From the NCBI GenBank assembly GCA_902806435.1, contig CADCWO010000021.1, positions 1 to 64,000 on the forward strand: 64,000 bases of DNA, read 5' to 3'. Below, one piece after another: positions 28,426 through 47,307 of the stretch. The position numbers were made by a program, and so were the translations under genes. The notes beneath the pieces are model-generated. The model was not told where the DNA came from and did not search any database. It worked only from the letters and a program-made list of their open reading frames with translations. The first letter of the stretch is position 1. The number at the start of each line of letters is the position of its first letter. The DNA comes from an uncultured Synechococcales cyanobacterium. Its GTDB lineage: Bacteria > Cyanobacteriota > Cyanobacteriia > Thermosynechococcales > Thermosynechococcaceae.

Positions 28426-28712
28426 CTCCCTTCAATATCTGAGGACAGGAAAAACTATCGATGGCAAACGCATAAACAATTCGGTTTAATTCGTAGCCCT
28501 GTGAGGCCTTTTTCCTAGCAAAGCGTGGATTGAAAATAAAAAAAACGTGTAGGAATATACTGAGCAAGTGTAACGTCGCCCTTGCCATAGCTGATATAAA
28601 TTGAGGTGCTTAGCCAACCCTTTGAGTTACTTTGTCGGGCTCCTTTGGGATAGCTGCCCTGATTCAAAAGCTATTGTCTAACCATTACAAAATCTTTGGG
28701 GGATCTTGTTTG

Positions 28713-30038
28713 ATGTCTAGTGTTTCTCGATGGTCATCTAGTAGTGCAGTGCTGCTTGCGCTGGGCGTAGTAGCTGGTACAGCCGCGCCCTTGGTGACCT
28801 CCGCTCCAGCTTCAGCACAAGTTAATTTTTCCGATGTCCGGAACCACTGGGCTCGGGAATTCATTACTAAGCTAGCGGCTGAAAATGTAATTGCGGGTTT
28901 TCCCGACGGTACCTTCAAGCCTGATGCGCCCGTTACACGTGCCCAATTTGCCGCAATCGTTCGTCAGGCATTTAACCAAAATGCTGTGCGCCAGTCTCGC
29001 GGATTCACCGATGTTCCCACGAACTACTGGGCAGCACCTGCAATTCAGGAAGCTTATGAATCTGGATTTATGGCAGGTTACCCCGGCAATCGCTTCCTGC
29101 CTAGCCAGGAAATTCCTAAGGCTCAGGTTCTGATCTCTTTATCCAGTGGCCTGCGGTACTCGCCTACCCCTCCAACGTCCAGCGATTTAAGCGTCTATGC
29201 CGATGCGTCCCAAATTCCTGACTATGCCGTGAATGGTGTTGCAGCCGCGACAGAGAAGAAGCTTGTCGTTAACTATCCCAACGTCAAATACCTGAATCCG
29301 ACCGAAACTGCAACCCGTGGAGATGTTGCCGCTTATATCTATCAGGCGTTAGCGAGTCAGGGTGAATTCCAACCCCTGCCGGCGAGAGCAGAAGGGGCGC
29401 AGTATATTGTAGGCGGTACGGGTAGTACTACTCAAACCGGGGGGACGAATACAACCCCCACCACTCAAACTGGGACGAATACAACCCCCACCACTCAAAA
29501 TCCTGATCTAAAAGTTGCACGCGATACACCTATAGATGTGCAATATGTCGGTGGGCGCAAGGTTTTAATGCCGGTCTCTCGTGGGGAAACCGTGGCTGTG
29601 ACGCTGGAGGTTGCCACTGATGTAAAGAACAGCAAAAACCAAGTTTTGATTCCCAAAGGGAGCCAAATCAAAGGTGAGTTAAAACCTGTTAAAGCCACAG
29701 GTGGTTCCACATTGGGTACCCAGTTTGATGCCCAAGAAGTTGTTATTGGGGGTAAGTCGTATCCTCTTAATGCAACTTCCGGTATCGTAACCACAGGTTC
29801 AGCTCAGCAGCCTACCCAAAGTACATCACCGCAGAATGTGGTGACTTCTGCCGCAACCAGAGCTGTGCTAGGGGCCATTTTGGGAGGCCAGATTAACACA
29901 GGTAGCATTACCAGTATTTTGACGGGCGAAGCTTCAAAAACACCTGCTGATAGTGCCAATGACATTATCTATATTGACCCAGCAACTGACTTGGATTTGA
30001 AGATAAATTCTGATTTCTACGCCAGTTCAGCTTCTTAG
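28713..30038 (+). CDS. SLH-domain envelope protein with C-terminal beta domain (copy 1)
   Basis: A 441-residue exported protein. ATG 28713 follows GGGGGAT and starts a signal peptide ending in APASAQ. Three SLH repeats (VNFSDVRNHWA, FTDVPTNYWA and a degenerate VYADASQIPDYA) occupy the first half and should bind the cell wall polymer. Next comes a Thr/Gly linker with two copies of GTNTTPTTQT. The last 170 residues (about DTPIDVQYVGGRKV to DLDLKINSDF) include LIPKGSQIKGEL, recalling the VirB10/TrbI beta-barrel. Likely tethers the outer membrane or forms part of an envelope assembly. First of two tandem copies. Confidence 0.85.
   Translation: MSSVSRWSSSSAVLLALGVVAGTAAPLVTSAPASAQVNFSDVRNHWAREFITKLAAENVIAGFPDGTFKPDAPVTRAQFAAIVRQAFNQNAVRQSRGFTDVPTNYWAAPAIQEAYESGFMAGYPGNRFLPSQEIPKAQVLISLSSGLRYSPTPPTSSDLSVYADASQIPDYAVNGVAAATEKKLVVNYPNVKYLNPTETATRGDVAAYIYQALASQGEFQPLPARAEGAQYIVGGTGSTTQTGGTNTTPTTQTGTNTTPTTQNPDLKVARDTPIDVQYVGGRKVLMPVSRGETVAVTLEVATDVKNSKNQVLIPKGSQIKGELKPVKATGGSTLGTQFDAQEVVIGGKSYPLNATSGIVTTGSAQQPTQSTSPQNVVTSAATRAVLGAILGGQINTGSITSILTGEASKTPADSANDIIYIDPATDLDLKINSDFYASSAS
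29010..29131 (+). repeat. 122-bp block almost identical to 30474-30595
   Basis: Inside the second SLH repeat of copy 1. By eye, 118 of 122 bases match the block at 30474-30595, while the flanking coding sequence is much more diverged. Synonymous sites match as well, which suggests gene conversion or recent recombination rather than protein-level selection. Confidence 0.8.
29442..29499 (+). repeat. Tandem 30-bp repeat, two copies, in SLH gene 1
   Basis: Two exact copies with a 30-base period (first starts 29442, second 29472) encode a repeated GTNTTPTTQT decapeptide in the linker between the SLH region and the C-terminal domain. The unit keeps the frame, so copy number can change the linker length without breaking the gene. 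Confidence 0.85.
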
Positions 30039-30158: not shown

Positions 30159-31454
30159 GTGTCTAATCTCTTTGGGCGATCGCTGCTAAGCCTAGGCACA
30201 CTCAGTCTTGGGATCGTAGCTTCTCTAGTTGATTCTCCTCCAGCTTTTGCTCAAGCTAATACTCCGGCTTCAGCAGTTAGCTTCTCTGATGTTGAGTCTA
30301 GTTACTGGGCACGACCCTTTATAGAAGCTCTAGCGACAAGCAATGTTGTTTCTGGCTATCCCGATAAAACCTTTAGGCCGAATCAGCCGGTAAATCGGGC
30401 TGAGTTTGCAGCCATGATTCAAAAAGCTTTTGACCAAAGACCAGTGCGTGAGTTGGATGCTAATCGATTCGGCGATGTTCCCACGAACTATTGGGCAGCA
30501 ACTGCAATTCAGGAAGCTTATGAATCTGGGTTTATGGCAGGTTACCCCGGCAATCGCTTCCTGCCTAGCCAGCAAATTCCTAAGGCTCAGGTTCTCGTTT
30601 CTTTAGCAAGTGGTCTAGGATACTCTCCTAGCCGCCCTCCGGCAACCACCTTAAACCTCTATACTGATGCGGGGCAAGTTCCCCCATACGCTGTGAATGG
30701 CATTGCAGCGGCGACAGAGAAACGGCTTGTTGTCAACTATCCAGACCTCAAGCTTCTTAATCCAACTGAGACAGCTACCCGTGGAGCCGTTGCCGCCTAT
30801 CTTTATCAAGCTCTCGTCAGCAAAGGCAAGTTACAACCTTTCACAAAAGCTATGGCAGTCTCTCAGTACATCGCAGGTAGTGCGCCTGAGAGGGGTACTG
30901 CCACTCTAGGTGTCACTACTAACCCGAGTCCGCCGAAGCCTGAATTCAAAGTGTTTAAAAACACAAAGATTAAGATCAAGTCTTTGAGTGCTGGTAGTGA
31001 CAGGATCATCGTCGCCCCAGGCGAAACTGTGCAAGTTACTCTAGAGGTGGCGGATGATGTCAAAAATCTGAAGCGGGAGGTTTTGATTCCGATCGCCAGT
31101 CAGGTTGAAGGGCGTTTAGTTCCCACGAGCGTCGGCTCTCAGCCTGGAGTTCAGTTTGTGGCCCAGAAGCTGACCATTGGCAGTCAGACCTATAGAATCA
31201 ATGCCACTTCTGAGCCGATAGCTGTTACTAGAACTGTAAGCCGGATAACTATTAGGGGGGGGGTTGCTACCGATGCTGCAAAGCAAGCCTTAAGACGCAT
31301 CTTGGGTAGTAATACCAATCTTGGTAGTACACTATCTACACCTTTCCCCGGCAAGGTGATTACGCCGCCGACAAATACCAGTCCAGCTAGCGTGATTGTG
31401 ATTAACGCCCAAGACGATTTGCTATTAACCCTGCAATCTGATTTAGGTGATTAA
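30159..31454 (+). CDS. SLH-domain envelope protein with C-terminal beta domain (copy 2)
   Basis: A 431-residue paralog of the preceding gene. The start is GTG at 30159 with a strong ribosome site GGAGG at 30144-30148. Signal peptide ends near PPAFAQ. Three SLH repeats (VSFSDVESSYWA, FGDVPTNYWA and LYTDAGQVPPYA) lie in residues 35-230, then a shorter Ser/Thr/Pro linker, then the C-terminal domain with KNTKIKIKSL, VLIPIASQVEGRL and the ending VIVINAQDDLLLTLQSDL. The ending matches the same element in the other two SLH proteins here. It shares a nearly identical 122-bp block with copy 1. Confidence 0.85.
   Translation: MSNLFGRSLLSLGTLSLGIVASLVDSPPAFAQANTPASAVSFSDVESSYWARPFIEALATSNVVSGYPDKTFRPNQPVNRAEFAAMIQKAFDQRPVRELDANRFGDVPTNYWAATAIQEAYESGFMAGYPGNRFLPSQQIPKAQVLVSLASGLGYSPSRPPATTLNLYTDAGQVPPYAVNGIAAATEKRLVVNYPDLKLLNPTETATRGAVAAYLYQALVSKGKLQPFTKAMAVSQYIAGSAPERGTATLGVTTNPSPPKPEFKVFKNTKIKIKSLSAGSDRIIVAPGETVQVTLEVADDVKNLKREVLIPIASQVEGRLVPTSVGSQPGVQFVAQKLTIGSQTYRINATSEPIAVTRTVSRITIRGGVATDAAKQALRRILGSNTNLGSTLSTPFPGKVITPPTNTSPASVIVINAQDDLLLTLQSDLGD
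30474..30595 (+). repeat. 122-bp block almost identical to 29010-29131
   Basis: Partner of the block in SLH copy 1. Four base differences were found by eye (TAC/TAT, CCT/ACT, GGA/GGG, GAA/CAA). A 21-base core (ACTGCAATTCAGGAAGCTTA and the next base) is also present in the third SLH gene near 57740. Confidence 0.8.
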
Positions 31455-34990: not shown

Positions 34991-35104
34991 AGAGACATCT
35001 GGTTTAATCCTGGGCCAGGCTGGGTATTCTAAAGACTTGGAAAGTATTTCGGTACCCCCATAGCTCAGCTTAAAAATCGCACGGGTTATGAGGGACTTGC
35101 CGTC

Positions 35105-37905
35105 TTGGAGGAGTTTCTTCAGATTCTCCGCGAACAAGATCAGCTTGAAGTACTGATTCAAGCAACACTGGATTATCTGAGTAGTGAGTTTGACTTTGAT
35201 CTAGTCTGGATTGGCCTATCTGAGCGCGCCAACCTGGGGCTAAGCGGCCAAGGAGGGCTGATACCCGCAGGAGATCCGGCATTTTTGAAGCGGCACTTTC
35301 GGCTTTCACCAGGCGACTTACTCGATCAAGTATTGGTCCAGCAACGTCCAGTGGGAGTGCCTGATCTGCGGCAGGAAAGCCGAGCTGGAGAATGGCGTCA
35401 GGCAGCACAGAAATTTAATATTCAAGGCACGATTCTCTTCCCAATCCTGTATAAAGATCACTGCTTTGGCTTGGCGTTGCTGGGGTCCCACCTCTGGGGA
35501 GGCTCCCCTCGCTCAGAGGAAACGGCTAAACTTTCGATGATCTTGAGGGCCTTGGGAGCAGCGTTGCACCAGGTGGAAGCTGATGCCCAACGCTATAAAG
35601 CAAAGCGTCCCGATCAGCCACTGCTGGCGTTACTTACTCAGCTAGGCATTTTACCCACGTTGACAAAGCGCTTAGAAGCTGTGGTTCAGCAAACCCAAGA
35701 GTTTGTGGTTCCAGCGCGCACCCATGTTTACTGGTTTGAACCCCAAAAGCGCTATTTCTGCGGCGGACAAGCAATTTAGCCAAACGGAGTGGTCGCCAAG
35801 AAGCAGCGGCGAGCTTAGAAATTGCGGTTCAGGATGTCAACGGGTTTTATCAAACCTTAAGTGCTGGTGGAATGATTGTGGTCGGTGAAGCCCAAAGTAC
35901 GCTGACTGAGATTACAGGCCGTTTGATGCAATTGCTGAAGGCGAGATCGCTGCTGGCGGCCCCAATTCTCTGGCAAGGCGAGTTGTTAGGATTTTTGGCC
36001 GTTGAAGGCACAGAACCGCGAATTTGGGAAGAAGCAGAAAAAACCTACCTGCGGGGAGCCGCCCAACTCATTGCCCTCACTGCCCCTTTGGCCCAAATGG
36101 AACAAACTGTCCAGCAAACACAGCAATATCAGGTGCTAACAACTGGGCTAACCCGTGCCATTTGTAGCCAGGAGGGCTGGAATGACACCCTTCAACAATG
36201 TGCTGAGCAGCTATGTCAACGCCTGCAAGTTGAGCGGTTTCTAGTGCTTTTACCCAGCCCCAAAACGGGTCGATTTTCAGCCTACTACCAGCATCAAGGT
36301 TCTCTACGCCCCTTTCAAGAGTCCCTAGATCGCCTGAGCGAGGTGGACTGGCAAATGTTACAGCGCAGTGTGGAACCAATCGCGATTGAGAACCTGAGCG
36401 AAGATCTAAAATTACTGGCCTGGCGGCAAACCTTGTTAGATTTGGGGGTGCGATCGCTGCTGGTTTGTTCTACCTCCCTAGGACGGCCGGAATCAGGACT
36501 GCTGCTGATTGGCCACGAAACCAGTCGCACCTGGAGCACCCAAGAGCGCCAGCTTGTCCAAGGCATTAGCCAACAATTGGGCTTGATTCTGTACCAGTGG
36601 CACCTCCAATGCCAAGGCGAACAACAGCAGCAGCTCCAGCAAGCGATGCGGCAAGGGCTGGCAATCATCCAGCGTGCCCAAAACTTAAAGCACCTACAAC
36701 AGGTTAGCCTGCAACAGTTCACCCAGATTCTGCAAGTTCCCGTGGCTGCCTTGATCAGTTGGCCTGTTAACCAATACCAAGGCCAGCGACAAGGTTAGAT
36801 TATCACATCCCCAACTGTCAACTCGCAGTTTGCCCTCCGCACAGAGGTAGCGGTTGCCGTGGATACTGACCCCCTAATTCAAGCTGTATTAGAAGAGCAA
36901 ACGCCCAGCAAGACCCAGGCTGGCCTACTTCTTCTGAGCGTTGAGGAGCTGGCACCGGAAACGCGAGCCTGGCTGCACGGTAGCGACATTGGCCAGATTG
37001 GGGCAATCGCTTTGCAAACTGCCCCTGAGCATCAACCCGCTGGTGTTGTCTTAGTGGCCGACCACCAACAGCGCCGCTGGAGTGACTTGCAACTGGAAGC
37101 TTTTTTTACCTTGGTCCAACAGTTGGCTTGGTCCTATCGCTCAACTCATTTAACAGCCCTCTTGAAGCAGCAATGCCAAAGTTTGGAATGCTTCAATTGG
37201 TATCGACAGCGGCGGCTGGAAGAAATCTATCGTACGGTTGCCAAGGACACTCAACGATTGCACAAACTGATTGCCCAAAGAACGCCTGCCGCCTTTGCTG
37301 GAGCAGGAATGTCTTCTGGTCAGGGGGTGGGTAGCAACAACCATCAGCCTGCCCTAGGCCAACTCCAGCAGGGGCTCGATAAGATACTCAGCCTGATCCA
37401 AAGCAAGGATTGTCAGTTTCATTCCCAACCGGAATCGATTGGTTTAGCCACTCTGCTGAAGCGGGTGCTGGAAGATATTAACCCGTGGATTCACCAACGT
37501 CAGCTTTGGCCACAAGTTCACAACCGGGTCAATATTACCCTCAGCGGCGATATTGAGAAAATTCAGCTGGTGCTCTATGAGCTATTGGATGCCGCTTGTC
37601 GTCGTTCGCCAGTCGAGGGACGGATTGATATCTGGTGTCAACCCTTGGATCAGCACTGGTTAGAGCTGTCGATCACCGATAATGGAGTGCTGGAACCAGA
37701 GCTGCTATTCGATCTCCAACAGGGTGACCGTCTGGACTTGCTCGCCACTTCTACCCTCAACCAGCCTCCAGGTAAGTCCTTAAAAGTAATTCAGGCGATC
37801 GCGAAGCAACTGGGGGGCCAAATAGAATTTAACCAGTTAGAAGATGGTCGAGGATTAAGCCGTCTCACCTTGCCTTTGGTCGCAACGCCTCAAACTGAAC
37901 CCTGA
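35105..37905 (+). pseudogene. Multi-GAF sensor histidine kinase, broken by frameshift and stop
   Basis: Three consecutive frames make one protein of about 930 residues. 35105-35779 is the first GAF domain. The continuation starts in another frame between 35740 and 35779, as expected from one deleted base. It reads GRQEAAASLEIAVQDVNGFY and two more GAF-like domains up to a TAG at 36796-36798. The same frame then resumes and holds another GAF part, a dimerisation helix and an ATPase domain with TDNGV. The frame is open upstream to 35033 without ATG or GTG; only a TTG is available. Codons are otherwise well kept: recent decay, or sequencing error. Confidence 0.75.
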
Positions 37906-46394: not shown

Positions 46395-47276
46395 CTAATC
46401 AAACACCACGGTTCGGTTCCCATAGACCAAGACGCGATTTTGAAGATGCAGCCTGACTGCTCTAGCCAAAACGACTCGCTCTAAGTCCTTGCCTTTGCGA
46501 ATTAGAGCAGCGGTGTTATCCCGGTGGCTAACCCGGACCACATCCTGCTCAATAATTGGTCCTTCATCCAGAGCAGCAGTGACGTAATGGGCTGTAGCTC
46601 CAATGATTTTGACGCCTCGTTCGTAGGCTCGCTGGTAGGGGTTGGCCCCGGCAAAGGCAGGCAGAAAGGAGTGATGAATATTAATGAGCTGTGAGAACTG
46701 AGCTGTAAATTCAGGACTCAAAATTTGCATGTACTTTGCTAGGACAACTAGATCAACGTTGTACTGCTGTAGTAACTCCAATTGCTTAGCTTCCTGAGTG
46801 GATTTGCTGTCCTTGGTAATTGGGATATGGTGATAGTCAATGCCAAATTGCGCCGCTACCGCTTGCAGGTGTGGATGGTTACTAATAATTAAGACAATTT
46901 CGGCTGCGAATTCCTGAGCTCGCTGTCGCAAAATCAGATCAAATAAGCAGTGGTCTTGACGGCTAACCCAGACGGCTACACGGGGCACTGTATCAGAAAA
47001 ATGGAGCTGCCAATTAGCTTGCAGCGGATGAGCTAGTCCATCACGAGCGTTGATAAATGCTTTAAAAGCAGACGCGATCGCCTCACGGGGTAACTTAAAC
47101 CCCTCCAGTTGCCACTCAATCCGGCTCAGGAATAGACTCGCAGTGAAGTCTGTATGATGATCAGCATGGACAATATTGCCCCCGTTCGTGTAGACAAAGT
47201 TGGCCAACTTAGCAACCAGACCTCGTTGATCAGGGCAAGAAATCAGTAGAGTGGCAGTGGGGCTGAAGTCATTCAA
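46395..47276 (-). CDS. purU: Formyltetrahydrofolate deformylase
   Basis: A 293-residue enzyme that hydrolyses 10-formyl-THF to formate and THF, balancing one-carbon pools. An N-terminal ACT domain (ATLLISCPDQRGLVAKLANF, residues 8-27) precedes the formyltransferase-like catalytic domain with NIHHSFLPAFAGANPYQRA and ATAHYVTAALDEGPIIEQD; the Asn-His-Asp catalytic triad residues are present in these two segments. Start is a TTG at 47276, since a stop lies three codons upstream and no ATG precedes the conserved N-terminus. Confidence 0.93.
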   Translation of the reverse strand: MNDFSPTATLLISCPDQRGLVAKLANFVYTNGGNIVHADHHTDFTASLFLSRIEWQLEGFKLPREAIASAFKAFINARDGLAHPLQANWQLHFSDTVPRVAVWVSRQDHCLFDLILRQRAQEFAAEIVLIISNHPHLQAVAAQFGIDYHHIPITKDSKSTQEAKQLELLQQYNVDLVVLAKYMQILSPEFTAQFSQLINIHHSFLPAFAGANPYQRAYERGVKIIGATAHYVTAALDEGPIIEQDVVRVSHRDNTAALIRKGKDLERVVLARAVRLHLQNRVLVYGNRTVVFD

Positions 47277-47307
47277 GCTTGGCTACAAACCTCAATTTGT
47301 TATCGAT

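Follow-up and report, generated by a model that had tools for sequence, protein, structure and literature searches.

A probable recent unitary pseudogene of a conserved four-GAF, kinase-like cyanobacterial sensor

Reading-frame analysis of the stretch considered here (the window: the first 64,000 nucleotides of contig C21, part of a 4.79 Mb draft genome of an uncultured Synechococcales cyanobacterium in 278 contigs) shows two forward-strand frames at 35033-37905 that encode one protein. The question raised by this arrangement is whether the gene has been lost by the organism, is intact there and wrong in the draft, or works as it stands, in pieces. An earlier sequence-only reading described a multi-GAF histidine kinase inactivated by at least two lesions, and left the choice between very recent loss and assembly error. 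Comparison with orthologues now indicates that the locus is probably a recent unitary pseudogene, derived from a conserved cyanobacterial sensor with four GAF domains and a kinase-like end.

The ancestral gene occupies 35060-37905 (+) and was a single frame of ~945 codons. Frame A is without a stop from 35033 until a TAG at 35777-35779 (+), just past the frame change; frame B runs from 35740 to a TAG at 36796-36798 (+), and then onward in the same frame to the natural stop, a TGA at 37903-37905 (+). The closest orthologue, L031 (943 aa, 53% identical to the window copy), covers both frames in two adjoining tblastn matches, residues 1-233 to 35060-35758 in frame 2 (55.6% identity) and residues 233-936 to 35755-37902 in frame 1 (50.6% identity). 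In multiple alignments, homology ends at ...KRYF in frame A and resumes at about RRTSN... in frame B. From the abutting matches and the residue alignments, the shift lies at ~35756-35763 (+), with a net difference of -1 base to the orthologues; the TAG at 36796-36798 corresponds to orthologue residue ~579, where the column is mainly Arg, Gln, or Lys. Alignment with intact orthologues, which the sequence-only reading had proposed as a check, thus places both lesions, and its description of one long frame split by a shift and a TAG, with intact codons between the lesions, is borne out.

A third lesion likely affects the start. The ATA at 35060-35062 (+), suspected from the outset of being a lost ATG, lies opposite the first Met of L031 in a gap-free pairing (IAQLKNRTGY / MAQPTSRTGY). 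The accompanying statement that the upstream frame has no ATG or GTG is true of its 5′ part only: in the ORF listing, the first remaining in-frame start candidate of frame A is a TTG at 35105-35107 (+), followed by GTG codons at 35351 and 35357 and an ATG at 35537. Since the TTG would begin translation 15 codons in, the start lesion by itself might be tolerated; the frame shift and the TAG, unlike it, would not.

The lesions leave three fragments. The first (35060-35758, +, frame A) carries GAF1 and the beginning of GAF2 (Pfam GAF, 9.1e-07). The second (35761-36795, +, frame B) carries the remainder of GAF2, GAF3, and the start of GAF4, as assigned from the reading frames, Pfam, alignment, tblastn, and an orthologue model. 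The third (36799-37902, +) holds the remainder of GAF4, a long helical hairpin, and a HATPase_c-like domain (Pfam HATPase_c, 1.7e-07), assigned also from the orthologues and the model. Neither internal lesion is at a domain border. Both are inside GAF folds: in the orthologue model the frame change, at residue 233, is within a GAF2 strand (232-238), and the TAG, at residue 579, is within a GAF4 strand (577-580). TAG is an ordinary stop in this window, where it terminates nine of the 24 genes tallied.

What the intact protein may have been can be judged from its relatives. Pfam finds GAF in window fragments 1 and 2 and four GAF stretches in each of the intact orthologues L031 and L033, as expected of a GAF sensor, and the multi-GAF part of the original description stands. 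The term histidine kinase fits less well. The C-terminus is kinase-like, but HisKA has no Pfam match in the three window fragments or in L031 and L033, and degenerate ATP-binding motifs are seen throughout the orthologues. HATPase_c scores 32.1 bits in the window copy (cut-off 26.4), and 25.0 and 15.8 bits, below the cut-off, in the two intact orthologues; the NCBIfam models for histidine kinases (CreC, PhoR, and others) give weak matches that stay far under their cut-offs. A helix motif NWYK-x has His at the last position in 35 of 52 orthologues, and Gln, Asn, Tyr, or Met in the rest. The N-box Glu is present in all 52, and 50 lack the expected Mg-binding Asn; in the G1 box, D is found in 50 and the first Gly in 52, with the second Gly replaced by I, V, M, or L in every case. 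These residues are presumed here to have their usual roles in the kinase-like domain. The His of a VH motif is kept in 52/52 orthologues, and that of a PPGxH motif in 50/52. In L072 and the other orthologues, the kinase-like C-terminal ~250 residues include invariant W, H, C, and R positions despite the degenerate ATP-binding motifs.

An AlphaFold2 model of L072 built with 49 sequences (mean pLDDT 83, pTM 0.49) has four GAF-like regions, a hairpin of helices 678-743 and 748-770, and a kinase-like domain at ~780-928; a model of window fragment 3 made without an alignment (mean pLDDT 40) was left out. On this basis the ancestral product would have been a protein of ~945 residues in which four GAF domains are followed by a long helical hairpin and a degenerate HATPase_c-like end, the hairpin resembling the dimerization part of a histidine kinase without a recognizable H-box. 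In the relatives it is probably a dimeric signaling protein, responsive to a ligand or to redox state, whose kinase-like end might act through conformation or binding and without histidine autophosphorylation. Taken together, the members of the family do not seem to be standard histidine kinases.

The gene is intact in most related cyanobacteria and far from universal in the phylum. Among 39 genomes searched, the window's own included, 35 (again including its own) match at 1e-20 or better. Without the window's genome 34 remain: three are frame-broken (G013, G022, and G029), and in 31 a single frame is open over 913 aa or more. At the same threshold, matches were obtained in 57 of 291 genomes of a phylum sample that partly overlaps with the first, leaving 234 without one. 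Of the 56 matching genomes besides the window's own, 55 contain an open frame of 858 aa or longer; the remaining one (G105) has 377 aa, starting with the very first bases of the contig, and looks cut at the contig end. Three of the phylum-sample genomes (G074, G206, and G307) have one TAA each within the match, and open frames of 935-978 aa. A contig search with nothing but the fragment from the window yielded no relative, and a second one, with alignment A1, kept 80 named loci of 140 relatives, all with cyanobacterial titles. Seventy-six of these are intact, one is edge-cut, and three are frame-broken (L087, L107, and L116).

A natural split of the orthologues, which would have spoken against a lesion, is ruled out by the 76 of 80 intact loci, and those that are split break mostly elsewhere. 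Breaks in the six other broken copies are at residues ~305; ~416 and ~814; ~712 and ~905; 128; ~280 and ~582; and ~270. None coincides with the shift of the window copy; the break at ~582, in L107, is near the position of the window TAG, but is a frame change. The copy broken at residue ~305 (L042, 3762-6640) is in G022, a genome in one contig of 2,659,739 bases.

In the window's own assembly (completeness 99.98% by the tool's figure) no second copy was found: after the gene itself, at 817.8 bits, the best match scores 30.6 bits. Nine flanking window proteins were sought at the 76 named loci with an intact gene; a nucleotidyltransferase had matches at 10 loci, at 22-29% identity, a Ser/Thr kinase at three, and the other seven at none, so that no conserved neighborhood was seen within ~3-5 kb.

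The extent of decay was estimated with 52 orthologues, dereplicated from 85 at 85% identity, excluding the start column. At 46 columns invariant in all 52, the window copy is altered at four: Ser for Tyr at 35219-35221, Arg for Lys at 37204-37206, Lys for Glu within 37405-37413, and Ile for Cys at 37789-37791 (all +). One of the four, the change of Lys to Arg, is conservative. Two further changes are at positions conserved in 51 of the 52, a Cys for Trp, also within 37405-37413, and an Asp for Arg at 37474-37476 (+). Scored in the same way, 33 orthologues have no change, 16 have one, and three have two, for a pooled rate of 22/2414, at which the binomial probability of four or more changes is 8e-4. 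The excess is limited to the strictest columns, since with the start column counted the window copy ranks first of 53 for changed positions at 98% conservation, third at 95%, and tenth at 90%.

Divergence overall is not raised. In a FastTree tree with midpoint root, the window copy has the smallest root-to-tip distance of the 53 tips, although its unshared branch is the fourth longest; distances to the node common with L031 are 0.45 and 0.47, about equal for both. The level distances and the shortest root-to-tip path argue against any general acceleration, and a few changes at constrained sites with unraised divergence fit recent loss better than long decay. The original impression of lesions without wider decay holds for divergence, but not for the four invariant positions.

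Assembly error is the main rival: the organism would carry an intact gene, and the draft would be wrong in two or three positions, by misassembly, a consensus error, or mixed strains in the bin. We consider this unlikely, but it has some support. The draft is in 278 contigs, and the frame-broken loci L087, L107, and L116 are on contigs with stated coverages of 1.89, 2.37, and 3.33, respectively; with three of 80 loci broken on such low-coverage contigs, it is suggested that assembly error can imitate breaks of this kind. A purU-like window ORF with a Formyl_trans_N match (46395-47282, −) likewise shows neither ATG nor GTG close to its 5′ end; it could begin at a TTG at ~47276, or may have a disturbed 5′ end.

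The error explanation would require two or three errors within 2.85 kb, and no such error was seen in 22 family-matched ORFs, ~27 kb summed. These came from a scan of 30 other window ORFs at cut-offs of 1e-40 and 1e-15, with ~20 further ORFs outside the scan; none of the 22 looks truncated or split, and most match their profiles over almost the full length. The least covered are tsf, whose best stretch spans 1-100 of 293 (the whole protein scores 236.9 bits), and ArsA_ATPase (3-248 of 305). Also against it, one lesion is a start-codon substitution, and several invariant codons are changed as well. Because the window genes checked are unbroken, error looks less likely than the sequence-only reading allowed, and of its two alternatives recent loss is favored. 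A codon-based scan was also run over 416 kb of the same genome, and of 83 abutting pairs on one strand it flagged 14, including two at this locus, which is weak evidence; applied to six known-break loci, it detected L042 and missed L046, L049, L087, L107, and L116, and with one break found in six it is not a strong control.

Two other features were noted in passing. On contig C32 of the same genome, L052 5614-6914 (−) consists of three abutting coding stretches whose first start codons lie well inside the coding signal, and is perhaps another decayed gene. In the window, the neighboring ORFs at 28632-30038 and 30159-31454 (+), which may be SLH-like, resemble each other over long stretches and could be tandem paralogues.

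The last explanation, that two or three separately translated pieces (from TTG 35105, ATG 35872, and GTG 36859) are functional, or that the frames are joined by programmed frameshifting and readthrough, is very improbable: strong codon bias throughout all three pieces, the unraised divergence, and the L107 break near the TAG could be cited for it, but both breaks are inside GAF domains, TAG is a normal stop here, and programmed frameshifting is ruled out because the six other broken copies are broken elsewhere.

The reading as a recent pseudogene starts from what is directly seen: three lesions, of three different kinds, within one gene; no second copy in the assembly; intact orthologues; and altered invariant residues. 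As in a unitary pseudogene, the frame is damaged where relatives have it whole, and no intact copy lies elsewhere in the assembly. In this genome the start would have been changed, the frame broken in GAF2, and a stop introduced in GAF4, and with these three changes no full-length product is expected from ordinary translation. We infer that the organism itself, and not just its assembly, carries the lesions, and that the function has been lost in vivo. Such a loss is ordinary in kind; inactivation of sensor genes is frequent in bacteria. No publication on this gene was met in a limited literature search.

For annotation, the three predicted ORFs should be corrected to one broken gene, and a strain with a natural loss is a handy starting point for asking what the family does. 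An intact family is found in many cyanobacteria, yet without a histidine kinase H-box. Tentatively, it might be a conserved family of pseudo-histidine kinases, without an H-box and with the Mg ligand mostly lost, that is dispensable enough to have been lost repeatedly through point lesions, in this genome and in G022. If so, four GAF sensors would sit on a kinase-like end that keeps other residues invariant.

Among known systems, the nearest are intact cyanobacterial orthologues such as those of Aphanocapsa sp. GSE-SYN-MK-11-07L (L072), Scytolyngbya sp. HA4215-MV1 (L073), and Thermosynechococcus sp. M98_K2018_005 (L098), which have the same domain order and motifs as the window copy and a similar length, but unlike it have one uninterrupted frame. 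Phytochrome-type and GAF sensor kinases resemble the orthologue model in their serial GAF-like domains, long signaling helices, and kinase-like end. Its top Foldseek matches are Cph2 (4bwi), bacteriophytochromes (8upk and 9eut), and plant phytochrome A (8isj), with low TM-scores by query length of 0.16-0.35 and identities of 10-19% among the best 50 matches listed; Cph2 also matches by sequence, at 5.8e-05. The family here differs from phytochrome-type and GAF sensor histidine kinases in having no HisKA match. A comparable loss may be that in Thermosynechococcus lividus PCC 6715, where a GAF (fhlA)-containing histidine kinase gene is reported as a pseudogene (PMC9953108). The paper describes a duplicated fhlA domain and a cluster that it calls unique to thermophiles, features that differ from the window gene; the likeness is that of a GAF-containing kinase gene recorded as broken in the same cyanobacterial group.
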